A stretch of 43,211 bases of DNA from a virus, in the IMG/VR virus record IMGVR_UViG_3300031521_000134, positions 1-43,211 of that record; one strand, written 5' to 3'. Below the pieces are notes generated by a model. The model worked only from the letters and a program-made list of their open reading frames with translations. It had not been told where the DNA came from and did no database searches. Below, one piece after another: positions 23,285 through 42,065 of the stretch. The translations under genes were made by a program, and so were the position numbers. Within the stretch, counting starts at the first letter, position 1; each line of letters begins with the position of its first letter.

Positions 23285-23776
23285 TTATGTGGTGGGAGGG
23301 AAGTTTAGTTTCTTAAAGTCAGGATTGCGTTTATGTGCAATGGCATCATAGGCTCGTGCCACATCTTCTTCTATGGAAAAGTATCCAAGATTCTTTATTC
23401 TCCCGTCTACTTGTATGTTTGCCTACCATTTTTCATCTCTTTTATGCCAGCTTACCCCAATGTATTTAGATGAGCGGTTTTTTCTCTTCCTTCTGTTCAT
23501 TAGGTTTTCTTGATGTGTGCAAGGTCTCATATTCAACCTCTGATTATTTCTGCCATCTCTATCCTCGTGATCTATGTCTGATTTTCCATCACTATCTCCC
23601 ATTAGAAATCTACGCATATACTGAATGGTGTGTTCGCCATTAACCACAACTCCCCTTGCTGCATAAAATGTATTTCCCTTTTTGTCGGCGTACCACGAGC
23701 CTGCCTGTATTAAACTTTCATAATCTGCATCGTCAACCATTGCAAATTGTCCTTGTGTTAAAGGTATTAATCTCAT
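23285..23776 (-). pseudogene. HNH-AP2 endonuclease gene broken by an amber stop
   Basis: The frame encodes an N-terminal domain (LTQGQFAMVDDADYESL), an HNH core (DIDHEDRDGRNNQ, then NMRPCTHQEN) and the start of an AP2 DNA-binding domain (SSKYIGVSWHKRDEKW), then a TAG at 23423-23425. The same frame runs on for 45 codons (ANIQVDGRIKNLGYFS, then ARAYDAIAHKRN) to a TAA at 23285. The intact copy at 31743-32219 has Gln at this place, so a CAG to TAG change explains it. The start follows that homologue; the frame is open nine codons further up. The truncated product keeps the HNH part and might retain activity. Confidence 0.8.
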
Positions 23777-23885
23777 TAATTTAGTATAAAGCACAAAGCC
23801 CAAAAAGCAGTGTGAGAGACCTGCTTCCCGAGCTTCATCAGATTTTTACATCTGAAATATTTTTTCTTCGACTCTCACATCAAAT
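23777..23885 (-). promoter_or_regulatory. Attenuator-like leader of the broken HNH-AP2 gene
   Basis: In minus-strand sense TGTGAGAG (23879-23872) can pair with CTCTCACA (23818-23811). That second arm is also the loop of a hairpin AAGCAG/CTGCTT (23826-23805) followed by U residues. A small hairpin CAGAT/ATCTG (23854-23839) lies between. A terminator whose loop pairs with an upstream arm is a typical switch arrangement. A weak promoter (TTAG, 19 nt, TGTCTTTG) may lie just upstream. Confidence 0.45.
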
Positions 23886-23943
23886 TGCAAAGACAGTAAA
23901 TTATTTCTAATTTCCTAATGCAATTCTTAATTTTATTGAATCT

Positions 23944-23974
23944 ATTGCATTTGTCCCGAAAAGCATTATCTTTA
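23944..23974 (+). promoter_or_regulatory. Promoter for the terminase-portal operon
   Basis: ATTG (23944-23947), 19-nt spacer, TATCTTTA (23967-23974): one mismatch in each element to the Bacteroidota consensus. The start of transcription would be near 23980, about 18 nt before the ATG at 23998. Confidence 0.5.
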
Positions 23975-23997
23975 CGTTTTAAACTATTTTAGTGTTC

Positions 23998-25605
23998 ATG
24001 CAGGAATTTATTTTATCCCCATCTGGTAAGAAATATTATACAAATGAATTTGTTGAGTCATTGCGTGAATCCAACCTAAATATTCCGGCAGGCTTCCCGT
24101 CTTACAATAGTATTCCGATGGCAGGATTTCAGGAGGAAGTCTTAATATCCGATGCTGACGTAGTTATAATAGGAGGTCGTCGCGGGGGTGGTAAGACGGA
24201 TATAATGAATCGCAGCGCGCAATATAATCTTGATAAGCTGGGATTCTCAATGCATGGTTTCAGGAAGGAGGAAAAAGACATAACAAACGGACTGTGGAAA
24301 AATGCAACCGAGATGTATCGTGGATTTGGGGAGTTTTCAGACTCCAATTCTACAATCAAGTTTTGTAATGGAGATTCAAGGATAGTTTATGCTCACCTTC
24401 AAAATGAGAAGGAGGTAGATAGAAGGTTTAGGGGGATTGAGATGCCCCATGTTATTATAGACGAGTTACCTCAGATTGGATTTAAAACATTCTTTACGCT
24501 TCTGGCATCTAACCGTAACTCTCTTGGAATTAAGAATAAGTTTATCGCCAGTTGTAACCCTGTATCTAATAGACATTGGGTTTATAAACTAATATCGTGG
24601 TATATAAACGCTGACACTAATGAGGTAATTCACGAAAGGAGTGGGCAAATTAGGTATTTCTTCAAGTATGGAGAAGGAATCACGGACATTTCTTGGGGCT
24701 TGACCAAAGAAGAGGTTTACAATAAAGCTAAAGGATTTATAGACAATATTCACGACGATTCTTTAAATGATATGTCAAGTAAGTATGATCTTATTTCATC
24801 ATTTACATTTATCGAAGGAGAGTATAGTCAAAACAAGATATTTAGAAAGAAAGATCCATCATACTTGGGTAGGCTCGCACAGCAAGGGGGTAGGCAGTCG
24901 GTTAAGGATATAAAAGGAATTTGGGGAGATGACGACACGGGGGAGGAGCTGGTTAAGGCATCTGAATTAGACAACGCATTTGAAAATCTACAAAAAGCAG
25001 GGGCAAGATTTCGTTGTGCTTGTGCAGACGTCGCTCTTACCGGAGACTACTTCGTTCTATTCGCATTTGAAGATAAACACGTTATTGATTACGAAGCATT
25101 TACAGGAGTACTATCAGATACGGCAGTTGAATTGACACGAAAGTTTCTTGACAAAAATAACATAAGAGAAGAGTATTTTGCCTATGACAGCAATGGGCTT
25201 GGGCTATATCTGGCTGGATATTTTAAAAGAGCTAAGCAATTTAATAACAAAGAAAGAGCATCTAATCCTCAGTTGTGGAATAATCAAAAGAGTGAATGCG
25301 CTGAAAAATTCACCAAGGCACTAAAAGAGGGGGAATATAGTTTTGATGATGATGTATTAAATCACGTTATTACAAAAAAGGATTCTAAAGGAGAGATAAT
25401 AGAGCAGATGACGCTTAGGGATAGGCTTGAATCTCAGCGTCCCGCGTTTAAGCGGAAATCTGTCGATAATGGAAAGTTTGAGATAATAGGAAAATCTCAA
25501 ATGAAACAGGAATGTGGGCATTCGCCCGATGAATTCGAAGCCTTATTTATGCGAGAAGTATTCAGTAGCAAAAAAAGGGGGTTTTCAAATAGTGGATTAC
25601 TTTAA
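23998..25605 (+). CDS. terL: Terminase large subunit
   Basis: 535 residues. The ATPase half has a Walker A motif (GRRGGGKT, about residues 60-67), a Walker B with catalytic Glu (VIIDE, about 152-156) and a coupling motif SCNP (about 185-188). The nuclease half shows the acidic residues of the RNase H-like fold: D in CADVALTGDY (about 344), D in AYDSNGLG (about 397) and the late PDEFEA. It cuts and pumps DNA into the prohead with the portal. A GTG two codons earlier is in frame, but the ATG at 23998 gives a usual leader. It is on the strand opposite to the head genes. Confidence 0.93.
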   Translation: MQEFILSPSGKKYYTNEFVESLRESNLNIPAGFPSYNSIPMAGFQEEVLISDADVVIIGGRRGGGKTDIMNRSAQYNLDKLGFSMHGFRKEEKDITNGLWKNATEMYRGFGEFSDSNSTIKFCNGDSRIVYAHLQNEKEVDRRFRGIEMPHVIIDELPQIGFKTFFTLLASNRNSLGIKNKFIASCNPVSNRHWVYKLISWYINADTNEVIHERSGQIRYFFKYGEGITDISWGLTKEEVYNKAKGFIDNIHDDSLNDMSSKYDLISSFTFIEGEYSQNKIFRKKDPSYLGRLAQQGGRQSVKDIKGIWGDDDTGEELVKASELDNAFENLQKAGARFRCACADVALTGDYFVLFAFEDKHVIDYEAFTGVLSDTAVELTRKFLDKNNIREEYFAYDSNGLGLYLAGYFKRAKQFNNKERASNPQLWNNQKSECAEKFTKALKEGEYSFDDDVLNHVITKKDSKGEIIEQMTLRDRLESQRPAFKRKSVDNGKFEIIGKSQMKQECGHSPDEFEALFMREVFSSKKRGFSNSGLL

Positions 25606-25622
25606 CTAATAATATTTACAAC

Positions 25623-27122
25623 ATGGCAACAACACAAAAGACAGTTGATGAAATTCTACTGAAGAAGCCCTTTAGACGGGCGGCTCCAAACATAGCATGG
25701 CATCCGGCTTCAACGATGGGAGAATCTGCGCCAGTAATGCTTCCGAGGCAATTATGGGCGCAAGTAGATCAGTCGCAATTTCTGACTGAGTATGATCCGG
25801 CAGGACATAAAATTAATGATCAGTTCTACTATGCTGATCGGGTTAAGTCGGATTCGACCGGACAGAGGTACATTCATTTCGTAGAGCGCGTCAGTTTACC
25901 AATGCAGCAGATTATTGTTACGAAACAAATGGCGCATCTTTCTGGCAATTATATCCAATTTGTGGATAGTAACCCCCTTCCGACAGAAGAGCAGAAGAAT
26001 TCATTGATAGAATTCAAGCAAGGGTGGATTAATAAAAACATGGAGGTCGCCATGCATGAGTTCTTCGAAATGGAAAAGATCACCGGAGATTCGGCTCTGT
26101 GTGGATATATCCACGAAGGTGAATTTGGATGGCGCACATTCGGTTATAAGAATGGGGAAATACTTTATCCCCACTATGACAATATAACCGGAAAGCTCAA
26201 TCTATTTGCGAGAAGGTATATGCAGAATGAAGTTGAGTACGTTGATGTTTGGGATAGCAAAAACATGACTACCTATACCCGACAGAAAGGGTGGATGGCA
26301 AAGGTTTCGAAAGTGATCGGAGCGGATGGGTGGAATGTAGAGGCGCGCGCACCTCACGGATTCGATTTTGTTCCGATCTCTTATAAGAGGGATGATATGG
26401 GTGCTTGTTGGTCTAACATTCAGGATTGCATTGACAAATTTGAATTGGCGGTATCTCAGTTGCTTGAAAATAACAAGTCGTATGCCTTTAGAATTATGTT
26501 CATCAAAGGCGATGGGGATATTCAGAAAGATGCAGACGGGATGCCATCGGTTATTATTGGCGATGAGAATAGCGATGCAAAGTTCTTAGAGAAAGCAGAC
26601 GCATCAACATCATTCGAGCTTCAGTTGAAAATATTGGAGAAATATATTTTGATGGGGAGCTTTACGGTTCTTCCTCCCGAAATTAGTGGATCTGGAGACG
26701 TATCTGGCGTAACCATAAAACTGCTGTATTCTCCGGCAGTTGAAAAAGCTATGGAGGATTCTCAACACTGGAATCAAGCATTGGATGATGTAGTTTCTAT
26801 ATTCAAATTTGGATTCGGGGTTGAGACTAAGAAATCTGCTCAGTTCAATAATCTGCCAGTAAGAGGTGAGATTATTCCATATGTACATCAAAATCTAATG
26901 GAACAAGCAACCATACTTAGTACTGGAGTAACAATGGGAACACTGTCGGTAGAAACTGCTTCGCCACAATATCCCAATGCTGCTAATGATGAATTCGCAA
27001 GGATAACTAAGCAAAATGAAGCTAAGCTCGCACAGGAGAACGCGAAGATAGAAGCGACCGCTAAAGCGAAACAGACAGGAATGAATCAAAATAATAAAGC
27101 AAGAGAAAATGCAGGCATTTGA
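25623..27122 (+). CDS. Portal protein
   Basis: 499 residues, 17 nt after the terminase gene. Typical portal traits are the long wing region, a helix-rich crown at the C-terminus (residues 465-495: KQNEAKLAQENAKIEATAKAK) and the stem/clip region with LPPEISGSGDVSGVTIKLL, where Ser-Gly-rich turn and a following helix (SPAVEKAMEDSQHW) match SPP1-type portals. It makes the dodecameric ring used for packaging and tail joining. The gene overlaps the next one by 14 nt. Confidence 0.85.
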   Translation: MATTQKTVDEILLKKPFRRAAPNIAWHPASTMGESAPVMLPRQLWAQVDQSQFLTEYDPAGHKINDQFYYADRVKSDSTGQRYIHFVERVSLPMQQIIVTKQMAHLSGNYIQFVDSNPLPTEEQKNSLIEFKQGWINKNMEVAMHEFFEMEKITGDSALCGYIHEGEFGWRTFGYKNGEILYPHYDNITGKLNLFARRYMQNEVEYVDVWDSKNMTTYTRQKGWMAKVSKVIGADGWNVEARAPHGFDFVPISYKRDDMGACWSNIQDCIDKFELAVSQLLENNKSYAFRIMFIKGDGDIQKDADGMPSVIIGDENSDAKFLEKADASTSFELQLKILEKYILMGSFTVLPPEISGSGDVSGVTIKLLYSPAVEKAMEDSQHWNQALDDVVSIFKFGFGVETKKSAQFNNLPVRGEIIPYVHQNLMEQATILSTGVTMGTLSVETASPQYPNAANDEFARITKQNEAKLAQENAKIEATAKAKQTGMNQNNKARENAGI

Positions 27123-27570
27123 ACCTAAAGAAGCCAGATTCGTTCTGGAGCATATACAACAGGCATTTCTTGGAGAAGAAGTGCCCGTAACGTGCGCATT
27201 CAACGAATACGCTGTTGCTAAGGCTCAGCGCATTTCTGGCAGAGTAGATTACGTATGTGTTGAGTGGGATTTTTCACTATACGTACCTCGGATTATTTTT
27301 GATCCTAATTGTAGTAATGGAACTATCGTGAAGCTACTTTGCTTATACGTGTATAGTAAGGTAGCCGAAATAGTCAAACCGCCAGAACCCAAGAAGGCAG
27401 ATGCTTTTTTTACGAAGTCGCCTGCAAAAATGTCGGGCGAGGAACTTAAATTCGAGCTGAAAATGATACATGGACTTTCAGACGAGAAGGTTGCTCAGTA
27501 TAAGTCGATGCCTTCGAGGGTAGCGAAGATTATAGAAATGAGGAAGATAGCAGATGGAAACAGAAAGTAG
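27109..27570 (+). CDS. Unknown protein downstream of the portal
   Basis: 153 residues, overlapping the portal by 14 nt and the next gene by 17 nt, so tightly coupled to both. The first 95 residues form a mixed alpha/beta domain (CVEWDFSLYVPRIIFDP); the C-terminal 40 are basic and helical (KMIHGLSDEKVAQYKSMPS), suggesting nucleic acid or protein contact. I recognise no family. Its place beside terminase and portal makes an accessory packaging role reasonable, without direct evidence. Confidence 0.6.
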   Translation: MQAFEPKEARFVLEHIQQAFLGEEVPVTCAFNEYAVAKAQRISGRVDYVCVEWDFSLYVPRIIFDPNCSNGTIVKLLCLYVYSKVAEIVKPPEPKKADAFFTKSPAKMSGEELKFELKMIHGLSDEKVAQYKSMPSRVAKIIEMRKIADGNRK

Positions 27571-27934
27571 ATTTCCACCCAAAGGTGAGAAGTGCGCACC
27601 GGATCAGTTCACTACATTTACCGTAAGGATAAGTGAGGTGATTGTAAGGAACCTGTATAAGTACTCCGATAAGTATTGCAAGGGGAAAGTTAACACACTG
27701 ACTGATCAGATCATTAACGAGTACATTGACACCCATTTTGGAGACCGTATGCTCACCGATTATGTTGGTGAAAATAAAGGTGGTAAGCTCAGAGATCCTT
27801 ACTACAAATACAATCTTCAGATTCGGCAAAGCACGAGAGATCGCTTGAATGATATGGCAGACGAGTTTCAGGTCGCTCGGTCAATTATTGCAGGGATTGC
27901 GCTGAAGATTTGGATGATGGGATTAGTGGAATAG
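27554..27934 (+). CDS. Protein with two ribbon-helix-helix-like repeats
   Basis: 126 residues, last gene of the rightward operon. Residues 21-59 read as a strand (TFTVRIS), a helix (VIVRNLYKYSDKY) and a second helix (TLTDQIINEYID), the order of a ribbon-helix-helix DNA-binding motif. Residues 84-120 repeat that order: KYNLQIR, STRDRLNDMADEF, ARSIIAGIALKIW. A monomer with two such units could form the two-fold DNA-binding unit that normally needs a dimer. It might be an operon regulator or a packaging-site recognition protein; both are inference. Confidence 0.6.
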   Translation: METESRFPPKGEKCAPDQFTTFTVRISEVIVRNLYKYSDKYCKGKVNTLTDQIINEYIDTHFGDRMLTDYVGENKGGKLRDPYYKYNLQIRQSTRDRLNDMADEFQVARSIIAGIALKIWMMGLVE

Positions 27935-27940
27935 AAGAAT

Positions 27941-27989
27941 ACCTCCGTAGGCTATATATGATAGTTATATCCTGTGGAGGTTATTTTTG
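27941..27989 (+). terminator. Intrinsic terminator of the terminase-portal operon
   Basis: An 11-bp stem (ACCTCCGTAGG with CCTGTGGAGGT, two wobbles and a long AT-rich loop) is followed by TTATTTTTG. It stands 6 nt behind the last stop codon. Confidence 0.75.
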
Positions 27990-28019
27990 TCCCAATTTTA
28001 TGATATATTTGGGACAAAA
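27985..28019. repeat. 11-bp perfect inverted repeat between convergent operons
   Basis: TTTTGTCCCAA at 27985-27995 and TTGGGACAAAA at 28009-28019 with 13 nt between. It joins the rightward terminator to the leftward one. It lacks a U run behind it on either strand, so it may be a protein-binding site or an RNA hairpin. Confidence 0.6.
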
Positions 28020-28048
28020 GAAACCCCACCGTTGCAGCGATGAGGTTT
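28014..28048 (-). terminator. Terminator after the GIY-YIG/HTH gene
   Basis: In minus-strand sense AAACCTC (28048-28042) pairs with GGGGTTT (28027-28021), then CTTTTGT. The stem sequence and tail resemble the hairpins inside the leaders at 28.75 and 41.88 kb. Confidence 0.5.
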
Positions 28049-28118
28049 GAAAGGAGTAAAAATGAATGTTTCTTCGAGTTGTAAATATAGGTAAATTAAT
28101 TGAGATTACCAAATTTAA

Positions 28119-28703
28119 TCAATAATCTATAAAGTTCCTCCTTACAGGTGAATCCATGTCGCCAATGGTTAATTTTACCCTTCCGAGAAAACTCAACAAT
28201 CTAACTACTGAATCTGTATTGAAATTCGTTTTGTTGCTCTGTTCTATTTCTCTTATGAATCTTAATCCAACTCCTGATTTTTGAGACATTTCATTTTGAG
28301 ATAATTTCATTAATTTTCTTCTTGACTTTATATAAACTCTGATGTCGTACATTGGATCATTTTGATTTATGCGTTCAAATTCTAAGCTCTCGATAGTTAA
28401 TGGGGTTACAGAATTTGAGTTTAAGAGATAATGCCCCTTACTAATAAAATAGTCAATCCAAAATTTTTCCTTTGCAAGTAGTAAGCTGTTATCAAATCCG
28501 TGATCAAGTATGGCAATAATCGGCTCCTTTTCGTCTTGTTCTAATCCATAAACCCAATCATTAACTTTTGCGGAATGAGACGCCTTTTTAATGTGTTCAA
28601 GTGGACGCACCATGCCACGAGTAGTCTGGCCAACATATACTGGCTTATTTGTATATGGGCAATAGAGAGCATAAATAAAATTGTCTTCTGTACTTGTTAT
28701 CAT
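28119..28703 (-). CDS. GIY-YIG endonuclease-like domain fused to an XRE/HipB-type HTH
   Basis: 194 residues. Residues 10-37 carry a GIY-YIG start in the form YALYCPYTNK..VYVGQTTRG, with the conserved Arg further on. Residues about 115-180 are a helix-turn-helix of the HipB/XRE class (LSQNEMSQKSGVGLRFIREI, then DSVVRLLSFLG). The first part would nick or cut DNA and the second bind it or repress. It has its own promoter and a 100-nt structured leader, and is followed by a terminator, so it is a stand-alone unit. It may be a mobile homing-type gene or a regulator derived from one. Confidence 0.65.
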   Translation of the reverse strand: MITSTEDNFIYALYCPYTNKPVYVGQTTRGMVRPLEHIKKASHSAKVNDWVYGLEQDEKEPIIAILDHGFDNSLLLAKEKFWIDYFISKGHYLLNSNSVTPLTIESLEFERINQNDPMYDIRVYIKSRRKLMKLSQNEMSQKSGVGLRFIREIEQSNKTNFNTDSVVRLLSFLGRVKLTIGDMDSPVRRNFIDY

Positions 28704-28806
28704 TTTATTTTAAATGTTTTAAAACAACAAACCCTCAGACTCAGCTTGCAGACTAAGAATGAAGGTTTGTTAAAAAATATTATCAATTATGCTGCAAGAC
28801 ATGTGA
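28704..28806 (-). promoter_or_regulatory. Structured leader with terminator-like hairpin, GIY-YIG/HTH gene
   Basis: An 11-bp stem pairs AACAAACCTTC (28771-28761) with GAGGGTTTGTT (28736-28726) in minus-strand sense, one wobble, followed by GUUUU. It stands between promoter and start codon and could work as an attenuator. Its 3' part closely matches the leader at 41.85 kb (about 28 nt, TCTGRGGGTTT then TTAAAACATTT). Confidence 0.5.
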
Positions 28807-28838
28807 CAAATATACGAAATAAAACTGAGACTACCAAA
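28807..28838 (-). promoter_or_regulatory. Promoter of the GIY-YIG/HTH gene
   Basis: TTTG (28838-28835), 20-nt spacer, TATATTTG (28814-28807). It overlaps the last codons of the upstream gene. Confidence 0.65.
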
Positions 28839-30369
28839 TATAATCACCCAATAGATGCTGACATTTTCCATCCGCATTAATAATCACATCCCCCACCCCC
28901 CACGATGACAATCCTTCGTTATATCCATGATCAAGCGTCTGGCATCCAACTACTAAACTCCCATCAGTTCTGGACGGAGAGTGAGAGTGTCCTGTAATAG
29001 CTTTCGACGATAAGTTCTTGAATTGCACAGAACTGCCCCTACTTCCGTTTGCTCCTTTGTCGCCATGCATATTCAATTCTATACCACAAACCACAATGCT
29101 ATCGTCCACTTTAGTTGCATTGATGTCTATTTGCTTGACCAGATAAGGGAAAACGCCACAATCCTCTCTTAATGCAATTGGGAGTAGCTCCGCGTACTTT
29201 ACCGCGTTCGGAATATCTTTGCGCCAATCCATATTGATTATATAGCGGTCTATCATGTTATCGTGATTAGATGCGACTACTACGATATTGTCGCACAGGG
29301 CATGTAGCTCTGCAAGAAAATCTAATGTATCCTCGATCTCATTAGCCAGACTATTTCTGCCGGACTCAAATCTTTTAACTTTTAATACCGCATTTTTTTC
29401 TTCGTGAGGGTTGATGCTTTCTGCGTCCATAACATCGTGTAGCACTACCATTTTTGGATTAATAGCAATTATTCTGTTTCGTATTCTTTCGCGAGCTTCT
29501 TGATCCAATTTAGATGTGTGGATGTCACCAAGAATTAATGCTTCTACTTGCGGGGCTTCTTTCACATCCCCGTTAATTACCCGTTTGCTGTAGTCGATAA
29601 AACTACCATCATCACATGCAGTTACGTAGTACATGTCTCCTTCCGTAACTATAACAAAACCATATACATGATGAAAACTTCCCTTTTTACCAGTTTTACT
29701 ATCGGTGTAGTTCGGTAACGTACAGGCTCCAGTCGTGATCATAATTTTCGGAACGTGATTCTTGGGTACTGGCATAAACGCCATATGTACTCTCGGATGC
29801 CCAAATATACACGACTCAGATGCGCTCAACCCATTAAGTCCAGAAAGAGGCGTAACTGCTGTGGGCTGAATTTTCACATCAGACATTAATTGAATACCGT
29901 CGAAAAGATTATGCCTGTTAGCGTCCAGATATGGTAGGACTTCTGCGCACCAGACATCATTGGCGGCATCAGAAAAGACGCTATTAGGGTTCTTATATCT
30001 GGATGCAATCACATGCACCTCTGCCTCTTTATATTTGGCATAGACTAATAGATTCTCCCAAAACTGCTTATGTACAGGCGTAGAGTTTAGGGCGGTTGTG
30101 ATTATGTAGGTCTTGGAAGGGGTTAGCGTTTTATGTGAAGCCTTCTCGTATTCGTTGTTTTTGCAGAGGGCGTTCATGTAAAGGGAGTAGAGTTCCATGT
30201 TTACTCCGGCAACTAAGCGTCCATTACATCCAAGCATTTGTCTTATTGACGTGCGATAGTTCTCTAATGTTCTGGAGCTATCTTGCTTAAACATCTCCTT
30301 TGCGATTGCTCTTTTATCGGTAATTCCTTTCGCAATACACTCTCGTATAACTTTTTCAGTGAAAATCAT
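28831..30369 (-). CDS. T5 A1-like calcineurin-fold metallophosphoesterase
   Basis: 512 residues. The C-terminal half carries the metal-binding series of calcineurin-like phosphoesterases: GDIH (281-284), SNHD (367-370, in place of GNHD) and GHSH (460-463). The middle (IQPTAVTPLSGLNGLS, then FGHPRVHM and IMITTGACTLPNYTDS) resembles phage T5 A1-type proteins as I remember them; A1 is needed for host DNA degradation and for completing T5 DNA transfer. Residues 1-80 have a helical, possibly DNA-binding start. It has its own promoter upstream, as an early-acting gene would. Function here is inferred from that resemblance. Confidence 0.65.
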   Translation of the reverse strand: MIFTEKVIRECIAKGITDKRAIAKEMFKQDSSRTLENYRTSIRQMLGCNGRLVAGVNMELYSLYMNALCKNNEYEKASHKTLTPSKTYIITTALNSTPVHKQFWENLLVYAKYKEAEVHVIASRYKNPNSVFSDAANDVWCAEVLPYLDANRHNLFDGIQLMSDVKIQPTAVTPLSGLNGLSASESCIFGHPRVHMAFMPVPKNHVPKIMITTGACTLPNYTDSKTGKKGSFHHVYGFVIVTEGDMYYVTACDDGSFIDYSKRVINGDVKEAPQVEALILGDIHTSKLDQEARERIRNRIIAINPKMVVLHDVMDAESINPHEEKNAVLKVKRFESGRNSLANEIEDTLDFLAELHALCDNIVVVASNHDNMIDRYIINMDWRKDIPNAVKYAELLPIALREDCGVFPYLVKQIDINATKVDDSIVVCGIELNMHGDKGANGSRGSSVQFKNLSSKAITGHSHSPSRTDGSLVVGCQTLDHGYNEGLSSWGVGDVIINADGKCQHLLGDYIW

Positions 30370-30390
30370 GTGATGTGGTGTTGGTTAGCA

Positions 30391-30421
30391 CAAAGATAAT
30401 ATATTTATTTAGTTATGCAAT
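30391..30421 (-). promoter_or_regulatory. Promoter of the A1-like gene
   Basis: ATTG (30421-30418), 19-nt spacer, TATCTTTG (30398-30391). Confidence 0.65.
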
Positions 30422-30430
30422 AGGTAAAGT

Positions 30431-30462
30431 AAAATAAAAACCCATCCGGTAAGGGGTGGGTT
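30431..30462 (-). terminator. Terminator behind the RNA region
   Basis: AACCCA (30462-30457) pairs with TGGGTT (30444-30439) in minus-strand sense, followed by a U-rich run (30438-30431 are mostly A on the plus strand). It would end the transcript that carries the membrane-protein gene and the RNA segment, just before the next promoter. Confidence 0.65.
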
Positions 30463-30584
30463 AGTGTATTTAATGGAATTGCGGGCGAAAATCGTTCACA
30501 CTTCACGAACCCGTCGTAACTATTTTGTCTTCCATCCTTCGCGGTTCCGTACCCAGAACTGGCTTATGATCGTGGTGCTTTGTG
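30463..30584 (-). ncRNA. Transcribed structured segment without an ORF
   Basis: About 120 nt between the tRNA-like gene and the terminator. In minus-strand sense it can fold into CGGG/CCCG closing a GTTCG/TGAAC hairpin and ATGGAA/TTCCAT closing a 55-nt domain, which suggests RNA rather than spacer. No known RNA family was recognised. The plus-strand frame over this region has no support. Confidence 0.3.
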
Positions 30585-30709: not shown

Positions 30710-30731
30710 ATCCTCGTCTTTCCGAGCGTGT

Positions 30732-30932: not shown

Positions 30933-30956
30933 TTTTACTGTTTATTAATATTATGT

Positions 30957-31714: not shown

Positions 31715-31742
31715 GCGTGATGTCTTATTTTATTTATATTTG

Positions 31743-32219: not shown

Positions 32220-32434
32220 TTAAAATATTCAACGTTTCTCCCATCCTTATTTAAAAATGCCATCTTTACTTTTCCAATTCCTGTCAGCTTCTCGATTGTT
32301 TCTTTTGTGCCGACCCGATCCTTTCCGTTTATCGACACTACAAAAATGTCTGTGTCGTTAAGTTCTTGATCTAATTTTAACCCCACGTCCGGCTCTGGTT
32401 TTGGTGGTGGCTTCTTTGGTCTCGTGGGAGCCAT
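32216..32434 (-). CDS. Small unknown protein
   Basis: 72 residues, Pro/Lys-rich front (APTRPKKPPPKPEPDVG) followed by a beta-alpha domain (IFVVSINGKDRVG, then VKMAFLNKDG). The frame opens 14 codons earlier, but an ATG overlapping the previous stop (TAATG at 32434) sets the start. Confidence 0.6.
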   Translation of the reverse strand: MAPTRPKKPPPKPEPDVGLKLDQELNDTDIFVVSINGKDRVGTKETIEKLTGIGKVKMAFLNKDGRNVEYFK

Positions 32435-32664
32435 TATGATTCGAAAGTTATGGTTACTGAATCGAGGATTTGCCAATATTCTTTATTGAAGCAATTAATC
32501 CAAGTAGTGCAATGATCTCCGATAGCGTTACTGTCTCCGTTAATTACAGTTCCTGATGTTTCGTTTTTAAATAAAATTACATCCTTGCTTGCAACACCCA
32601 TAGCCACTAATGGGAACATTTCAATTAGCTCATGTTTCTTCTCTTTTACTATTTCCGTTTTCAT
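32434..32664 (-). CDS. Small unknown protein, first in its operon
   Basis: 76 residues; basic helix at the start (MKTEIVKEKKHELIEMF), then a mixed segment with CTTWINCFNKEYW. It is the first gene behind the promoter at 32691-32721 and is coupled by a TAATG to the next gene. No family recognised. Confidence 0.55.
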   Translation of the reverse strand: MKTEIVKEKKHELIEMFPLVAMGVASKDVILFKNETSGTVINGDSNAIGDHCTTWINCFNKEYWQILDSVTITFES

Positions 32665-32690
32665 CTCTTTCTCTTATTAGTTTATAAATA

Positions 32691-32721
32691 CAAAGATAAT
32701 ACATTTATTCAGACTTCCAAA
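32691..32721 (-). promoter_or_regulatory. Consensus promoter of the DUF3127-HNH operon
   Basis: TTTG (32721-32718), 19-nt spacer, TATCTTTG (32698-32691), a perfect match. It overlaps the last codons of the upstream gene (stop at 32709). Confidence 0.7.
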
Positions 32722-33206
32722 CTTTTTGGTAAATAATTATATAATTCTTTTAGGCTTATCGCGGATGTTGCATATTCCATAAATTTACTACTCCTCTTAA
32801 AATTAAACATATACTCCCTATTTCCCTGCTCCACAATCCACTCCACTTTCATACAACCATAATTGGTATTCAACTTCACAATCATTTCCCATGCTACCAA
32901 TCCGGTCAGTTGCTCCCGACATTGGAGAAAGTAAAGCATAAAGTCCACATCCAACACCCGCAGCATCCTCCCGTCTACAACCGAAATAAACTGGTCGGGT
33001 CTGTACGTTTCGGATACATTCATAAGCACATATGTAAATAGCGACACATACTCATTCTCTTCTTGCAAGTCCGGCACTTCCCTTACCTCCAATTCCCGTA
33101 CTCGCGCATCAGCTACGGCAAGAAAGCGTTTGACCGGACTGTTTCGGTTCGCATAGAAGCGGGCAAGCGAGGCTGATTCGTGGGAGTATAGGAGGGCGTA
33201 TTTCAT
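32709..33206 (-). CDS. Unknown early protein
   Basis: 165 residues. It is rich in aromatic and Leu residues, with a strand-helix mix (VSLFTYVLMNVSETYRPDQF, then VEWIVEQGNREYMF). No signal or membrane span. It overlaps the upstream gene by 4 nt. I do not recognise it. Confidence 0.6.
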   Translation of the reverse strand: MKYALLYSHESASLARFYANRNSPVKRFLAVADARVRELEVREVPDLQEENEYVSLFTYVLMNVSETYRPDQFISVVDGRMLRVLDVDFMLYFLQCREQLTGLVAWEMIVKLNTNYGCMKVEWIVEQGNREYMFNFKRSSKFMEYATSAISLKELYNYLPKSLEV

Positions 33207-33430
33207 AAAGCGGCATCGGCATGACGCAAATCACATTCATAAAAGGCCGCATAATAACCATCTTCAGCCACTATTATATTTCCCTTTTGTTTAAATATCT
33301 CAATTCCATTTTTAGACATCTCTTGACCATACCCCGTTATGGCCTTGGTTAATTCTGCGTCCTCTTTCGACATTTCAAAAACATTATCTGTGTCTATTGG
33401 TAAAAACACAATCACTATATCGTTTTTCAT
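33203..33430 (-). CDS. Small unknown protein
   Basis: 75 residues: a strand (DIVIVFLPIDTDNVF), a helix (KEDAELTKAITGYGQEM) and a second strand pair (IEIFKQKGNIIVAED). Coupled by ATGA to the next gene. It looks like a small alpha/beta domain of unknown function. Confidence 0.55.
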   Translation of the reverse strand: MKNDIVIVFLPIDTDNVFEMSKEDAELTKAITGYGQEMSKNGIEIFKQKGNIIVAEDGYYAAFYECDLRHADAAL

Positions 33431-33441
33431 CTCTTTTTGTA

Positions 33442-33609
33442 TTATAAATTACTTGCCTCTTTCGTATCGTTCTGCAACTTAATCAACGCATCCTGCATTA
33501 AATCGAAATATTCTGCCCAATCCTTTTCGCTCCGGTTTGGCGGAAACTCAACAATGCAGTTGACTACATTTGCGAGTAAGGGGTATTTGTCGTGGAAGTC
33601 TTGGTTCAT
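33442..33609 (-). CDS. Very small conserved-looking early protein
   Basis: 55 residues starting MNQDFHDKYPLLANVVNC, mostly helical and acidic. Its ATG overlaps the previous stop (ATGA), which supports translation. No family recognised. Confidence 0.5.
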   Translation of the reverse strand: MNQDFHDKYPLLANVVNCIVEFPPNRSEKDWAEYFDLMQDALIKLQNDTKEASNL

Positions 33610-33890
33610 TTCATTGCCTCCTTTTTGCCATCTTCAACCCCTTTGATATATTCTTGCATTCCGTATGTTCTCATAGCCTTTCTGATAAGACCAAGAACCG
33701 GAAATATAACCGATATATCAATCAGGTTTTTATCTGCTTCTTCTTTTAGTATTTCGTATGGTGTCATTTCTTCCCTTCTATTCGTTTCATTTTTAAATAA
33801 TTCTTCACTATCCGCATAAAATCGACTATAACCTTTCGGTCTTGCACAGATACCTTTATTCTTGGCTCGTTCATCGAAAATCAGTTGCAT
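33606..33890 (-). CDS. Small unknown protein
   Basis: 94 residues. The first 40 are a basic region with KGICARPKGYSRFYADSEEL; the rest is helical (TPYEILKEEADKN, then FPVLGLIRKAMRTYGMQEY). A second in-frame Met at about residue 42 could be the true start, because the first 20 nt overlap the upstream gene. Family unknown. Confidence 0.5.
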   Translation of the reverse strand: MQLIFDERAKNKGICARPKGYSRFYADSEELFKNETNRREEMTPYEILKEEADKNLIDISVIFPVLGLIRKAMRTYGMQEYIKGVEDGKKEAMK

Positions 33891-34110
33891 AACAATCTTC
33901 CGTTATCGTCCAATCATCCAACAGCATCTCTTCAAATGCCACATCCATAACCTTCTTATCTTTGTAATGTCCTATTACCACCCAATTGAGCGTATTACTT
34001 CTGGTTGCTTTCTGACGTTCTATTTCTAATGATCGCTTACTTTTTCTGATTATTCGGAACCCGCGCTGGACTTTCCAGGGCTGGGAGAATTTTTGAGTAT
34101 CGTCTGACAT
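33871..34110 (-). CDS. Small basic unknown protein
   Basis: 79 residues, basic in the first 40 (FRIIRKSKRSLEIERQKATR), then a strand-helix pair (NWVVIGHYKDKKVMDVAFEE). It overlaps the upstream gene by 61 nt in another frame, which is long even for this compact operon, so one of the two starts may be later. No family recognised. Confidence 0.45.
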   Translation of the reverse strand: MSDDTQKFSQPWKVQRGFRIIRKSKRSLEIERQKATRSNTLNWVVIGHYKDKKVMDVAFEEMLLDDWTITEDCYATDFR

Positions 34111-34244
34111 TTTCGTAATTTTGTTATCATCATTTTTGCTTTCCTTTTCGTATTTAGGGTTCGGTTGTCGCTGCCCTGTATTCGGTCGATCTCTGCCAGT
34201 AGGATTAGGAGTGTTGTGCGGGTTTGGTTGGAGACGGTTATCAT
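34050..34244 (-). CDS. Small helical unknown protein
   Basis: 64 residues; a leading helix TTLLILLAEIDRIQ and a basic helix RKAKMMITKLRKCQTIL, with a Ser/Pro tail. It begins one base behind the methyltransferase stop, which supports translation. Its end overlaps the next gene by 61 nt. Confidence 0.45.
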   Translation of the reverse strand: MITVSNQTRTTLLILLAEIDRIQGSDNRTLNTKRKAKMMITKLRKCQTILKNSPSPGKSSAGSE

Positions 34245-34245
34245 G

Positions 34246-34719
34246 TTAATTTTTCATAAAGCACATCCAGTGAGTATTAGATAATTTACCTGATTTATGT
34301 CCAAATAAAGGTTTATACCCAATTGTATCCAAAATATCAGATACTTTTATTTGGCTTTCATTCCATTTGAAAATCAAAGTTCCAAAGGGTTCTAAAACTC
34401 TCATACATTCATCAAATCCTTGCTTAATATCCTGTCTCCATGTTGTTTCTAAAACTCCATACTTTTTACACATCCAACTATTTTTACCAAGCTGGTTCAT
34501 ATGAGGTGGATCAAATACAACCATCTTAAATGTGTTGTCAGGAAAGTCTATATTTCTGAAGTCCATAATAACATCTGGCTCAATATCGAGCTTCCTTCCA
34601 TCACAAAGAATATGATTTTCTGTTCTTATATCAGCAAATAACACATCTGGATTAGTTTTATCAAACCAAAACATCCTACTCCCACAACATGCATCTAAAA
34701 TCTTCTTTTCTGTTTTCAT
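34246..34719 (-). CDS. Class I methyltransferase with DPPH motif
   Basis: 157 residues. Motif I is LDACCGSRMFW (residues about 8-18) and motif IV is VVFDPPH (about 67-73), the DPPY/NPPY position of amino-methyltransferases with His in the last place. The fold is short and has no target-recognition domain. Such DPPH proteins are frequent in phages and are thought to methylate DNA, perhaps to protect it. It precedes the small early genes and follows the helicase gene by 11 nt. Confidence 0.75.
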   Translation of the reverse strand: MKTEKKILDACCGSRMFWFDKTNPDVLFADIRTENHILCDGRKLDIEPDVIMDFRNIDFPDNTFKMVVFDPPHMNQLGKNSWMCKKYGVLETTWRQDIKQGFDECMRVLEPFGTLIFKWNESQIKVSDILDTIGYKPLFGHKSGKLSNTHWMCFMKN

Positions 34720-34730
34720 CTCTTCTATTT

Positions 34731-36236
34731 TTAAATTGGCGGTAAATCATATTCCAGTTCTCTCTGATTCGGTACGCTCGGCTTCACTAGTGTTTTCCCC
34801 ATACACTTATACGCCACAACCCTGCTAAATTCTTCCTTACTCATCGTCAATAATCCCTGAGAAGCTAACCGATCCCATTCCGCCAACATTGGCATGATGT
34901 AGTAGGTGTAAGTCATTCCATCCGCTTTTCGATCCTTCTGGAAATTCTTTTCTTTCAGTTTTTCGGCAAACTTGACATTCGAGAATGCATTGTAGCCAGA
35001 TGCTTTGCAATAGTCCACATACTGCTTATACAGATCCTTTGCGGTTATTTGCATCGGGGCGTGGGTCTTATAGACGGGGATGTTGTAGTATTCCTGATCT
35101 TCTATGAATTTGAGGATCGAATTTGAGTTCATCTCATACTCAATTGCACGATCCGTTATTATTTCCGGTTCTGAAACCTTATACCCATTAGCTGAAACCA
35201 TATCGAAACCATCTAATACCCAGTTTAATATAGCAGGCAATTCCTCAATTAATTCTCTGTGCAAATTAAGGTTTCTTTTCTCAATAGGAATCTTAACGTC
35301 AAATGGTATGACACTGAAACGTCTAAAATATCCGTCGCTATAATCCTGAGTGATAGGAAGTTCGTTGGCGTTTGCAATCAGTAATGGAATGTAATAGGCC
35401 GTAAAAGATTCCGAATATATCTGCCTCGCTTGCACTGGCTCTCCGCTTATTAAATTTTTAAAAACCTCTCCAGACAATTCTTTCTTTCCTAAGTCGGAGC
35501 AATAGTTTAAAATCTTCCCATTAATGGACGCTAAATTTTTCTGCTTGTCACCACCGCTTACTAAGGAACCAATATCAAAAGATGTCGTATTGCTTTTGCC
35601 AACAAGCCTTGTTATGACCTCATACACTACGCTCTTCCCGTTTGCGCCAGATCCAAGTAAAACCAATAATTTTTCGAGCTTATACCTTGATCTGTCGGCA
35701 AATAGAAGCCCACAATACTGTTGAAGCGTGATCCTGACAGACTCTAATGGTAAAACCTCTTCTAAAAATTTAATCCATTTCGGACACTTAGCGTTTGCAT
35801 CGTAATTATAATCAATGCGATTTATCACCATATGCCTCGGAGAGAATTCAGATAATTCCCTTGTTTCTGCATTAAGTATTCCGTTTTCGAAACAAAGAGA
35901 TCGGCGGTCTAGCTGGAATTCTCTTGAAGACAGCGATCTCATTACAACTTTTATCATTTGGGGAAAACTTCTTGTGAGTACCCCATTGCTGACGCCGTTT
36001 TTTCTCATACTTTCAAAGACGGCATTTTCGAGTACTTCATTCTTGGCTTCAACGTAAGAATGGCCATCAAAGTAGACAATGCCCCCATTGTGCTTATAAA
36101 TGTCAAGCACTGGTAATGCGTCGAGATAGACAAATGCGATACCGCCTATTTTCTCCTCCTTATTGTCGAGTACTACTGCGTCCCTTAGTTTGGGCTTATT
36201 GATGGCTTCCGATAGACCTTCTACCAGACTTTTCAA
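34731..36236 (-). CDS. SF3 helicase / D5-like primase-helicase
   Basis: 501 residues from the chosen start. A D5_N-like region precedes a Walker A motif GSGANGKS (about 195-202); the block LISGEPVQARQIYSESFTAY and the NANELP / GYFRRF motifs complete the superfamily 3 helicase core. Residues from about 405 form a C-terminal winged-helix-like domain (DLYKQYVDYCKASGY, then KDRKADGMTYTYY). No primase domain is present, so priming may come from elsewhere. The start is uncertain: an ATG at 36341 opens the frame, but it lies inside the small HTH gene; a TTG at 36236, one base behind that gene's stop, is preferred. Confidence 0.85.
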   Translation of the reverse strand: MKSLVEGLSEAINKPKLRDAVVLDNKEEKIGGIAFVYLDALPVLDIYKHNGGIVYFDGHSYVEAKNEVLENAVFESMRKNGVSNGVLTRSFPQMIKVVMRSLSSREFQLDRRSLCFENGILNAETRELSEFSPRHMVINRIDYNYDANAKCPKWIKFLEEVLPLESVRITLQQYCGLLFADRSRYKLEKLLVLLGSGANGKSVVYEVITRLVGKSNTTSFDIGSLVSGGDKQKNLASINGKILNYCSDLGKKELSGEVFKNLISGEPVQARQIYSESFTAYYIPLLIANANELPITQDYSDGYFRRFSVIPFDVKIPIEKRNLNLHRELIEELPAILNWVLDGFDMVSANGYKVSEPEIITDRAIEYEMNSNSILKFIEDQEYYNIPVYKTHAPMQITAKDLYKQYVDYCKASGYNAFSNVKFAEKLKEKNFQKDRKADGMTYTYYIMPMLAEWDRLASQGLLTMSKEEFSRVVAYKCMGKTLVKPSVPNQRELEYDLPPI

Positions 36237-36237
36237 T

Positions 36238-36456
36238 TTAGATAACTCTAAAAAAAGAAGTTGAGAAAAAGTTAAACTGCGCGGCTTTCCCGTTTCGCAC
36301 GTGACTGTAAGGTGACCCCAAGGAATTTTTAGAAAGCCCAAGGCTTCTTGAGTAAGCTAATCTCGTGAGCCATACGTGTCCATCACAAATTACTGAGTCT
36401 TCCGAAATCTGGATGACTGTTTTAAACTCCCCTGCTGTATCATTCTGTTTTTTCAT
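36238..36456 (-). CDS. Small helix-turn-helix-like protein ahead of the helicase
   Basis: 72 residues. A short strand region (TVIQISEDSVICDGHVW) precedes a likely helix-turn-helix (LTRLAYSRSLGLSKNS, then HVRNGKAAQF). It could bind DNA at the replication start or control the operon. Its 3' end includes seven T (CTTCTTTTTTTAG), and a +1 shift there would fuse it to the helicase frame; this may be a real fusion, a split gene or chance. Confidence 0.55.
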   Translation of the reverse strand: MKKQNDTAGEFKTVIQISEDSVICDGHVWLTRLAYSRSLGLSKNSLGSPYSHVRNGKAAQFNFFSTSFFRVI

Positions 36457-36477
36457 CGTTGTATTTTTTGGTGGCTG

Positions 36478-36508
36478 TAAAGATAATACATTTATTTGAA
36501 TTACCAAA
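36478..36508 (-). promoter_or_regulatory. Promoter of the helicase operon
   Basis: TTTG (36508-36505), 19-nt spacer, TATCTTTA (36485-36478). It lies directly behind the upstream stop at 36511. Confidence 0.6.
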
Positions 36509-36510
36509 CA

Positions 36511-36837
36511 TTAATCAATTTCAAATAGGTCCTCGTGTAGGTATGGCTCCTCCCTTACCATCTTAAGCAATATCCCATAGTTCACTAAGTCAATAATACT
36601 ATTGTCAATCGACTCATTATTCGGCACTTTACTTCCCTGAAGATTCCCTATCCTGACTGCTTTGGTCGCTATGAAAACCAGAAGAACTTGCTCCGGCGTA
36701 ATCCCAACCATAGAAGCGACTATTTTGAAATTTGATAGGCGATCCTCATTAACATAGTCATCCCCCTTGCTGTCCTGTATTTTACTTAGCTCGTCAAATA
36801 TGGCAGTGAATGCTGCGGCTTGCTGTGTTTTGGTCAT
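36511..36837 (-). CDS. DUF1599-like (nucleotide-modification-associated) protein
   Basis: 108 residues, helical. The series SKGDDYVNEDRLSNF, VFIATKAVRIGNLQ, and NSIIDLVNYGILL has the order seen in DUF1599 / Nmad1: a K-x-DY motif, a KA-x-RI helix and a closing D-LVNY helix. Such proteins are linked to modified-nucleotide pathways, although no reaction is proven. It overlaps the broken DUF4406 gene by 4 nt, another nucleotide-linked family, which fits a shared context. Confidence 0.6.
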   Translation of the reverse strand: MTKTQQAAAFTAIFDELSKIQDSKGDDYVNEDRLSNFKIVASMVGITPEQVLLVFIATKAVRIGNLQGSKVPNNESIDNSIIDLVNYGILLKMVREEPYLHEDLFEID

Positions 36838-37151
36838 TTGTAAAATTGTTTTAGTTGTTTAATATAATAAAATACTGGTAGTAATAGTTCCTGCACATAC
36901 CTGACTTCCCCATCTGCGCCGGAAGATTCGCCTCCAAGCCGGAGAACGCAATCACATACGCTCACCCATTCCAAATTCAACCTGATCCAATCGTGGTAGT
37001 CTCTCGGATGCGCCATATGCTGAAAGTGGCTATAAAGCGGTGCAAATAGTGCGAATCCGCCATTTATAAGCTCGTCAACTGTGTCAATTTACAGTTTTAC
37101 GTTTACTGCGATGTCGCCTAAAGTATATGGCGATGCTATGTAGACTTTTAT
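36834..37151 (-). pseudogene. DUF4406 gene with ochre stop and lost start
   Basis: The frame reads KVYIASPYTLGD..VNVKL, then TAA at 37089-37091, then IDTVDELINGGFA, FAPLYSHFQHMAHP and LRLGGESSGADGE, the full set of a DUF4406 nucleoside-deoxyribosyltransferase-like protein of 105 residues. A Gln codon CAA is expected at the stop. At the expected start, 37151, the codon is ATA in TTATAAAAG; one G would restore an ATGA overlap with the methyltransferase stop. Two G:C to A:T changes therefore explain both losses. A residual ORF from 37016 could still make the C-terminal 60 residues, though it lacks the binding site. Confidence 0.8.
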
Positions 37152-37711
37152 AATTTTATTGGCTTTAATAATGGAATATATTTGCAATCCACATTTCCCT
37201 TAATCCAAACCGTCCAAATAATTTCTAATGTTGGGGATCCGGTCTTTCCACCTTTTACTCTTTCCTGATATAGAAAATCTGGTCTCCATGTAAGCGGAAG
37301 TATGTACGATGGTGGGTTCCTGAAAAATAGATTGGCTCTCTTCTTTGCGTGCCAATACTGGCTTTTTAAAACCATCGCGACAATGTCAGCCTCCCCTAAT
37401 GCCTTTTCAATAAACTCGGCAGATAAGTTGAAGGGTGGATTTGTAATAATAACATTGCAATCTTCTTTCGCTGTCAGGTAATCCGTTCCCGTGCTTAAGT
37501 CTGTTTCGATAACGTTGTGCCCGTAAGATTTCATCACATCTGCCATCGCGCCATTACCTGATGCGCACTCCCATATCTTACATGGTTTCAATTTCAAAAA
37601 ATCCATTAGCACAATCGTCACATCTGGTGGTGTAGGATAAAAATCCAATTCTCTCCTATCCTCTTTTCTGCCGCCTCCTGTTAATTGCAGTTGTTTCTGT
37701 GTTGGTGTCAT
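37148..37711 (-). CDS. N6-adenine DNA methyltransferase-like protein
   Basis: 187 residues. A YPTPPDVT motif (about 25-32) is followed by motif I WECASGNGAMADVM and motif IV VIITNPPFN (about 88-96), the signature of gamma-type amino-methyltransferases on adenine. The rest includes the aromatic PLTWRPDFLY segment. There is no restriction enzyme nearby, so an anti-restriction role is likely. Its start overlaps the upstream gene by 4 nt. Confidence 0.8.
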   Translation of the reverse strand: MTPTQKQLQLTGGGRKEDRRELDFYPTPPDVTIVLMDFLKLKPCKIWECASGNGAMADVMKSYGHNVIETDLSTGTDYLTAKEDCNVIITNPPFNLSAEFIEKALGEADIVAMVLKSQYWHAKKRANLFFRNPPSYILPLTWRPDFLYQERVKGGKTGSPTLEIIWTVWIKGNVDCKYIPLLKPIKL

Positions 37712-38031
37712 ACCCGTTTCATCTTTTCTACGATTTGTACTCCTTTAAAATAATTAAAAAACCTCTCCTCAATCCCCCTAACTTCTAATCCGTTCCCGAA
37801 GATCAACCCCACATCGGTTCGCTTCCGTTCGACTAACCACCCTTCATTATCGCAGGAGCCAGTCGGTCGGCCTATATTGGAGAAGTATTCAACTCTTGTT
37901 ACCACTTTCTCGGTTTCTGAAAGTTCCCAGAGGCTTCGGTTCTTTGAGGGTGTGTGAATCCAGATACGTTTCATTTCCTCGATTCGCTTGAGGCGTATAA
38001 CATCTGCCTTTACTGTTTCTGGAGTCTTCAT
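37708..38031 (-). CDS. Unknown early protein
   Basis: 107 residues, basic front half (VKADVIRLKRIEEMKRIWIH) then a beta-rich half (DVGLIFGNGLEVRGIEERFF). Coupled by ATGA on both sides. Not recognised. Confidence 0.6.
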   Translation of the reverse strand: MKTPETVKADVIRLKRIEEMKRIWIHTPSKNRSLWELSETEKVVTRVEYFSNIGRPTGSCDNEGWLVERKRTDVGLIFGNGLEVRGIEERFFNYFKGVQIVEKMKRV

Positions 38032-38258
38032 AATCTCGTTAATTGTATTATTTTACTTTTAACATCAAAGACGTATCTCTTATCAAATTCAGAGCTTCCT
38101 TTCGGGTATAACTGCATTGCGGAATGTTTTACACCTTCATTGTAGGACTCTTTTTGGGATAACTCAATCAGATTTAATACTGTTTGTAACCCGTAAAAAT
38201 AATCAAACCCGTGTGCCTCGTTTGGGGCGTTACTAATTATTTCTCTTGCTGTTCTCAT
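38028..38258 (-). CDS. Small unknown early protein
   Basis: 76 residues, helical (MRTAREIISNAPNEAHGF, then VLNLIELSQKESYNEGV), with a basic end. A strong GGAGG lies 6 nt ahead of its start, rare in this genome, and is supplied by the end of the peptide gene just upstream. Confidence 0.6.
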   Translation of the reverse strand: MRTAREIISNAPNEAHGFDYFYGLQTVLNLIELSQKESYNEGVKHSAMQLYPKGSSEFDKRYVFDVKSKIIQLTRL

Positions 38259-38261
38259 ATT

Positions 38262-38327
38262 TTACCTCCACTCCTCCGGCTCATCTGTGTAGTCGGTTTC
38301 TTCAATTAACTCATTTTCAGTAGCCAT
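38262..38327 (-). CDS. Possible 21-residue acidic peptide
   Basis: ATG overlaps the end of the zinc-ribbon gene; the product begins MATENELIEETDYTDEPE and its last codons contain the GGAGG for the next gene. It may be a coupling peptide or not be translated on its own. Confidence 0.3.
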   Translation of the reverse strand: MATENELIEETDYTDEPEEWR

Positions 38328-38517
38328 GATAGCTTTCCTCGTCTTTAGTTTCTGGAATAAACCTCTCAATATTAGACTCATGTCCACAGAAATTGCAACG
38401 ACACATATCATTCATTCTCGTTACGTTCGTAGCCCCACAACCCTCTCTTGGGCAGGTCAGGACGAGTGCGGTATATCCGTCATCGTCTTCTGGTTGGTAT
38501 CCAGTGGGTGTTCTCAT
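38317..38517 (-). CDS. Small zinc-ribbon protein
   Basis: 66 residues. Cysteine pairs C-x4-C (CPREGC) and C-x-C-x2-C (CRCNFC) in one small domain suit a zinc ribbon that binds nucleic acid or protein. The start used (38517) overlaps the previous stop in ATGA; twelve further upstream codons are also open. The acidic C-terminus (ETKDEESYHGY) is typical of regulators that dock on larger partners. Not further assigned. Confidence 0.65.
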   Translation of the reverse strand: MRTPTGYQPEDDDGYTALVLTCPREGCGATNVTRMNDMCRCNFCGHESNIERFIPETKDEESYHGY

Positions 38518-38807
38518 TTCTTTTTCTTTATTGGTGAATTGTGGTGTATGCATCCAAAATATTCATCTGTCACAAAACAATACTGACTTTTATCGGTAGC
38601 TCCAAATGGAACTTCATTCTTTTGACTTTCGAATCTTTGGACACCCATATGCTTTCCGCTTCTATTGTTCCTATCGAGTACTTTTACATCTCCAGAGTTC
38701 GATGTTGTAAAATACCATTTGTGGCAGGTGCATATTCCGTTAAATTTAGAATATTCTAATTCTGCCTGTTGATTCTTCCAGCTCGCGCATGTTTTACATA
38801 GCTTCAT
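38514..38807 (-). CDS. Cysteine-rich small protein
   Basis: 97 residues with C-x2-C (CKTC), a second pair CTCH and later CFV/CIHH positions, so one or two metal sites are likely. It ends in four lysines. Overlaps the next gene by ATGA and the previous gene by 14 nt. Similar small cysteine proteins occur in many phage early regions; function unknown. Confidence 0.6.
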   Translation of the reverse strand: MKLCKTCASWKNQQAELEYSKFNGICTCHKWYFTTSNSGDVKVLDRNNRSGKHMGVQRFESQKNEVPFGATDKSQYCFVTDEYFGCIHHNSPIKKKK

Positions 38808-38970
38808 CAGTTACCTCCTTCCAAATCATTCCGCAACATCCAATTTCGCCCAGCTCCTTACATAATTCGTCGGCTTCTTCGGTGCAGGGATAACCCGCGC
38901 ATCCGTGGCATAATCCACTATCTGACTCTTCTTGCTGCTCGTAAGTAATTCCTTTGTGTTCTGTTTTCAT
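38794..38970 (-). CDS. Small cysteine-rich early protein
   Basis: 58 residues: MKTEHKGITYEQQEESD, then a C-x2-C-x4-C unit (CHGCAGYPC), a further C and a CC pair before GMIWKEV. The arrangement suggests zinc binding. The start is the first ATG behind the DUF7736-like gene (6 nt), and the stop overlaps the next gene. Confidence 0.55.
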   Translation of the reverse strand: MKTEHKGITYEQQEESDSGLCHGCAGYPCTEEADELCKELGEIGCCGMIWKEVTDEAM

Positions 38971-38976
38971 CTTTTA

Positions 38977-39312
38977 TTATTTAGTATTAGGTGATTCAAG
39001 TCCTGCTATAAAATTTATTTGAAAATCAATTTTTTCAAGCTCTATCTCATAATCAGAGTAGTCATCATCAATAAGTTTCATTAATTCCCTGAAATCATTA
39101 GTTCGATAAACGGCTTTAATTTTGCCCAAAACACTAACCCCATCCGCAAACCATTTGGGATTGACTTCCTTTATTTTTCTCATTCCGGTCGGCAGTTGAT
39201 GTGTCATTAAATTATCTGAGAAGACAAAATTTAACATCTCATACACATCACCAATGTCGGTTGATAATCTGCCATCTAATAGCGAGAAGGCTTTTTTAAG
39301 TGATACTTTCAT
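38977..39312 (-). CDS. DUF7736-like phage protein
   Basis: 111 residues. The segment DIGDVYEMLNFVFSDNLMTH, with HQLPTGMRK, matches the LEDVY..LN...D.LFTHQLPR pattern that I associate with DUF7736 of phages. The C-terminal half is helical (IKAVYRTNDFRELMKLIDDD). No activity is known for the family. It is downstream of the opal-broken gene in the same operon. Confidence 0.6.
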   Translation of the reverse strand: MKVSLKKAFSLLDGRLSTDIGDVYEMLNFVFSDNLMTHQLPTGMRKIKEVNPKWFADGVSVLGKIKAVYRTNDFRELMKLIDDDYSDYEIELEKIDFQINFIAGLESPNTK

Positions 39313-39326
39313 CTTTCCTGTTATTA

Positions 39327-39506
39327 TTAAATTTCTACTGGCTTATCTCCCCACTTCAGTTCCCGTCCAATTAGTTTCTGGATTGATCCAGATGGGAGGT
39401 GTATATACACATCATCGGAATCGCTAAAATATCTAATCACACCCTTTACTGGTTTATCTTGGTAAATTCATTCCGACTTATCCTCATCAACTGCTAAATA
39501 TGCCAT
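39327..39506 (-). pseudogene. Small phage gene broken by an opal stop
   Basis: The frame reads MAYLAVDEDKSE, TGA at 39468-39470, then IYQDKPVKGVIRYFSD and LPSGSIQKLIGRELKW to a TAA at 39327 (59 codons). Relatives of this small family, as I remember them, have Trp where the stop lies (E-W-I pattern), so TGG to TGA explains it. The start follows the promoter at 39533-39563 with a leader near 20 nt. Confidence 0.65.
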
Positions 39507-41976: not shown

Positions 41977-42065
41977 ACCCCACGTAAAGAAAAACAAAAG
42001 GTGTTTATGGCGGAAGCTGATTAAGGGGCGATTTTTGGCCGATTTTTAGCTTTTTTCGATGATTT

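Follow-up and report, generated by a model that had tools for sequence, protein, structure and literature searches.

Phage genes that join an HNH nuclease domain to an AP2 domain are known to lie beside terminase genes and known to decay (PMC10448857, PMC2248197). Decay of AP2-type HNH genes in phages has been described (PMC2248197), as has the case of gp115-gp116 in ICP1 (PMC10448857). Here we analyzed a phage record in which such a gene next to a terminase gene is broken by one nonsense codon, together with two further genes, a DUF4406/DUF7768 gene and a small gene of a family that we call MAYLAV. Our preferred reading, with a probability of about 0.86, is that dispensable genes of a tailed phage have undergone recent, independent and ordinary pseudogenisation.

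The window, meaning the whole stretch of DNA analyzed, is the IMG/VR record IMGVR_UViG_3300031521_000134, a linear, metagenome-derived contig of 43,211 bases. The record is that of a tailed phage, whose host is probably a member of Bacteroidota, judging from promoter-like sequences and from the gut-phage relatives of one gene. Its nearest relative is IMGVR_UViG_3300022561_000008 (hereafter G001), with which most of the window is colinear; the relatives used for comparison show 75-85% identity to the window. Because the search of phage records for near DNA matches returned no close relative and the portal protein had no match in host genomes, the most recent private mutations could not be listed.

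Reading of the frames confirmed that three genes, all on the minus strand, each contain a single in-frame stop and then stay open to the natural end, as an earlier note on this DNA had observed. The homologues compared are open at all three stop positions, and none ends there. Apart from these three frames, 57 of 57 genes are open, and none of the long structural genes is interrupted; the open genes comprise a 1709-residue tape measure gene as well as those for head, tail, portal, terminase and primase, which does not fit the earlier proposal of a defective element. The 57 genes end in TAA (32), TGA (17) and TAG (8), and extensions past gene ends are mostly short, with further stops within a few codons. 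Coordinates are collected in the table.

Table. Broken genes, their stop codons and related features in the window.
Feature	Position	Strand	Basis
HNH-AP2 (IPA-HNH type), free-standing predicted homing-endonuclease gene, broken	23285..23776	-	frame, Pfam AP2 and HNH_3, sister gene in G001
TAG in HNH-AP2 frame, codon 118 from the ATG at 23776	23425-23423	-	homologues open there
Unbroken HNH-AP2 paralogue of this genome, with CAG at the matching codon	31743..32219	-	Pfam, codon comparison
DUF4406/DUF7768 (nucleoside 2-deoxyribosyltransferase-like) remnant without start codon	~37154-36834	-	Pfam, phrog_355, 17 homologous loci
TAA in DUF4406 frame, CAA in G001	37091-37089	-	alignment with homologues
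DNA methyltransferase-like gene (phrog_799), flanked by gene 37708-38031 and DUF4406	37148..37711	-	absent here in G001
Small accessory gene of MAYLAV type with 59 codons, interrupted at codon 13	39327..39506	-	family of 31 further loci
TGA in MAYLAV frame	39470-39468	-	column variable in homologues

In the HNH-AP2 frame, Pfam places HNH_3 ahead of the TAG and AP2 across it, and the expected order of the two domains is obtained only with the TAG treated as a sense codon, with 25.3 and 19.2 bits, under the curated cut-offs; the intact paralogue clears the HNH_3 cut-off (32.7 bits). The stop spares the HNH part and takes away most of the AP2 domain. A total of 71 distinct homologues align over the full length, none with a stop at the TAG position (0/71), and the residue in this column varies (R16, Q14, E5 and others). 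Two of these homologues from other viral contigs, L140 and L152, have one internal stop of their own with the frame kept. The earlier note had derived the TAG from CAG, which the phylogeny does not bear out: in a maximum-likelihood tree the sister of the broken gene is a G001 copy with GAG (support 99/95), the next closest pair likewise has GAG, and CAG occurs only in the paralogue within the window. Because the best-supported sister has GAG at this site, the TAG may plausibly have arisen by a G-to-T transversion, which by codon comparison appears as likely as a transition or likelier. Weighting by the codons of the family, with transition weights of 2-6 and the sister left out, the chance that this stop was a transition is 0.30-0.56.

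The broken HNH-AP2 gene sits between the gene at 22515-23150 and the terminase gene at 23992, in a spacer of 842 nt; the corresponding spacer is shorter in G001 (about 150 nt) and in a further relative, L021 (about 350 nt). No HNH gene was found in this terminase-side spacer in either relative, and the insertion site is empty there; G001 does carry HNH-AP2 genes, but at other sites. The remnant has Val in a column where 70/71 homologues have Ala, and Arg replaces a conserved His (67/71 homologues), while the region past the TAG has not yet degenerated. Elsewhere in the window, the product of 28119-28703 (-) may be a homing endonuclease of GIY-YIG type joined to a helix-turn-helix (phrog_314, HTH_3), and G001 has an HNH-AP2 gene at that place.

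The DUF4406/DUF7768 remnant passes the DUF7768 profile (29.6 bits against a cut-off of 26), the match spanning the TAA, and falls just under the DUF4406 cut-off (20.2 against 22 bits); the match to phrog_355 reaches 56 bits, and the copy in G001 shows 89% amino-acid identity. Because Gln occupies the TAA position in 15 of 15 aligned homologues from viral contigs, all of them open, and the codon in the nearest (G001) is CAA, a C-to-T change at this stop is secure. The start codon has also been lost, a loss that the earlier note ascribed to a change of ATG to ATA. In the start region, ATG ATC AAG GTA of G001 lies opposite ATT ATA AAA GTC of the window, and the gapless alignment pairs the ATG with ATT, ATA being the next codon, so the proposed change needs another alignment. 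Homology to G001 ends exactly at the start codon, and the 3' end of the methyltransferase gene coincides with the lost start. The upstream gene overlaps DUF4406 in G001 and overlaps the methyltransferase gene in the window; among the methyltransferase homologues fetched for the ancestral junction, none adjoins DUF4406. The start may therefore have disappeared through ATG to ATA (if stop and start overlapped as ATGA), through ATG to ATT, or together with sequence lost at the junction.

Compared with G001, the dN/dS of the DUF4406 remnant is 0.14, equal to that of its intact neighbours (0.15 and 0.13), and for this reason the break is recent. The remnant deviates at 2 of 36 columns that are invariant in the 15 other homologues (P to L and A to V); both changes, like that of Q to stop, are C to T. 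We read these two deviations, with the Ala to Val change in the HNH-AP2 remnant, as early decay on the basis of the alignments. Neighbour-like dN/dS thus stands alongside deviations at invariant columns, the break being too recent for a contrast in constraint.

Homologues of the MAYLAV-type gene were found with an alignment that included gut-phage relatives; a single-sequence search gave none. All 32 homologues are open at the TGA position, where the column is variable (Y8, W3, M3, F3, H3 and others). The TGG ancestor assumed in the earlier note is accordingly one option in a mixed column, Trp being a plausible ancestral residue, and with the same family-codon weighting and transition weights of 2-6 the chance that this stop was a transition is 0.57-0.80. 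The gene was looked for in G001 and was not found. Among the homologues, L073/L074 have TAG at codon 56; the near-identical L070 reads GAG at this codon, so that the change is a transversion.

Other elements of the window deserve mention. A tRNA-Leu(GAG)-like element, whose anticodon loop carries 37 inserted nt, lies at 30709-30584 (-) of the window and at L033:8145-8218 (-). It was called by ARAGORN with introns allowed (0 calls in 400 shuffles) and was not picked up by default ARAGORN or Rfam; G001 carries an intact tRNA-Thr at its place. The element may be a decayed tRNA and a fourth broken gene. On its 3' side, about 100 nt at 30592-30483 (-) are kept in G001 and hold a possible hairpin in which the stems differ, a candidate RNA or regulatory element. 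Finally, the stretch of about 0.9 kb at 41984-42870 has no clear genes; parts of it are conserved in G001 (~81%), and it holds an inverted repeat at 42198-42239/42461-42502.

Could one mutational process have produced all three stops? The earlier note had assigned each of them to a G:C to A:T change, an assignment that stands for the DUF4406 stop (CAA), is doubtful for the HNH-AP2 stop (sister GAG) and is unproven for the MAYLAV stop (variable column). In the genetic code, G:C to A:T changes are the only transitions that convert a sense codon into a stop, so that a uniform direction among transition-made stops adds nothing beyond their being transitions. We polarised substitutions between the window and G001 lineages with L021 as the outgroup. 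The window lineage showed 128 G:C to A:T changes, 171 A:T to G:C changes and 250 transversions (549 changes), and the G001 lineage 103, 128 and 183 (414 changes). No excess of G:C to A:T was seen on the window lineage, either overall (128/549 vs 103/414; Fisher p = 0.59) or at codon positions 1 and 2 (p = 0.59), and no sequence context is common to the three stop sites.

Intact genes contain 814 transition paths and 4753 transversion paths to a stop. For per-path ratios of 2-6, three nonsense changes would thus all be transitions with a chance of 0.02-0.13; fourfold sites give a transition ratio of about 1.9, although they are saturated. Such odds would be mildly suggestive if all three changes were in fact transitions, which is secure for one of them. 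That three G:C to A:T nonsense changes should all fall in genes of at most 165 codons has a chance of about 0.04 if placed at random; this confinement agrees with selection, although not strongly.

Taken together, a common process such as deamination of the sequenced DNA, a mutator host or a cytosine deaminase is largely refuted, and we regard it as improbable. It would account for the fact that all three stops are reachable by G:C to A:T transitions and that the changes at otherwise invariant DUF4406 columns are uniformly C to T, but the polarised counts lack the excess that it predicts, the HNH-AP2 stop may well be a transversion, the long genes are untouched, and G:C to A:T is the most frequent mutation in bacteria regardless (PMC2936535). 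A very recent C-to-T burst, for example through attack on the phage DNA by a cytosine deaminase of the host, could have left traces only where selection was relaxed, and would be too recent to register against relatives of 75-85% identity; we consider such a burst very unlikely. In a metagenome-derived contig, any of the sites could conceivably reflect a base-call or assembly error, or a minority allele that entered the consensus. However, about 840 codons could become stops by one G:C to A:T step; two thirds of these codons lie in larger genes, where none was hit; nor would single errors be expected to yield the unusual missense changes in the remnants or the missing DUF4406 start, and we hold this explanation, too, to be improbable. 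Damage, a mutator, widespread error and a defective element, all raised in the earlier note, are thus opposed by the lack of a mutational excess and by the 57 open genes.

Two explanations would leave the genes in use. The frames are open and conserved past their stops, which would fit readthrough by recoding or a suppressor tRNA, but all three stop codons are involved and each also serves as a gene end, so none is generally reassigned; moreover, a default tRNA search of the window finds no tRNA, and DUF4406 has no start codon. In agreement with the earlier note, we consider readthrough practically out of the question. A truncated product might still act, for example the 117-residue HNH part without AP2, since phages have HNH-only and AP2-truncated forms (PMC2248197). 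The loss of the conserved His and the undegenerated state of the region past the stop, which indicates a recent truncation, make this a most unlikely outcome.

Recent and independent pseudogenisation, with relaxed selection as its background, remains the best of the readings, including those listed in the earlier note, since the genes are broken by nonsense codons and their homologues are intact. The internal stops of the HNH-AP2 homologues L140 and L152 and of the MAYLAV homologues L073/L074 show this kind of decay in other contigs as well. For one phage record of about 60 genes, three broken ones are a fair number, which we counted against decay. The empty HNH site, the methyltransferase junction and the absence of the MAYLAV gene from G001 suggest that each gene was dispensable or disturbed by an insertion. 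A mobile homing-type gene would have entered beside the terminase gene without use to the phage; a nonsense mutation would then have cost it the DNA-binding AP2 half, in the cycle usual for homing genes, which are gained, decay and are lost. The start of the DUF4406 gene was lost next to the methyltransferase gene, which separates DUF4406 from its usual upstream neighbour, and the gene carries a C-to-T nonsense codon as well; the small MAYLAV gene was hit close to its start. The sequence in which this happened is inferred, as is a lack of function in the truncated products.

What the locus contributes, one HNH-AP2 gene broken by a nonsense codon and compared with its empty site in relatives, has little significance alone. 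It also carries a caution: as stop-making transitions are uniform in direction, the ancestry of a codon should be taken from homologues. A shared deamination process, if true, would bear on phage mutagenesis; the present tests oppose it.

The three genes compare differently with known families. MAYLAV proteins, which have no Pfam or PHROGs name, are about 55-90 residues long and occur in viral contigs and human-gut phage records; the gene in the window matches them over its whole length and differs in its TGA at codon 13. The DUF4406/DUF7768 frame matches its family at full length across the stop, but has no start, one TAA and two substitutions at invariant columns. The HNH-AP2 gene, with a predicted N-terminal HNH and C-terminal AP2 in a free-standing gene, resembles those of the Xanthomonas phages Xop411, Xp10 and OP1, hegG/hegJ of T5 and gp115-gp116 of ICP1. 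It further shares with these HNH-AP2 (IPA-HNH / HNN-AP2) genes the occurrence in several copies at differing sites of one genome, the terminase neighbour and the broken copies. Whereas the T5 and ICP1 cases involve indels or frameshifts, the gene in the window is broken by a single nonsense codon.
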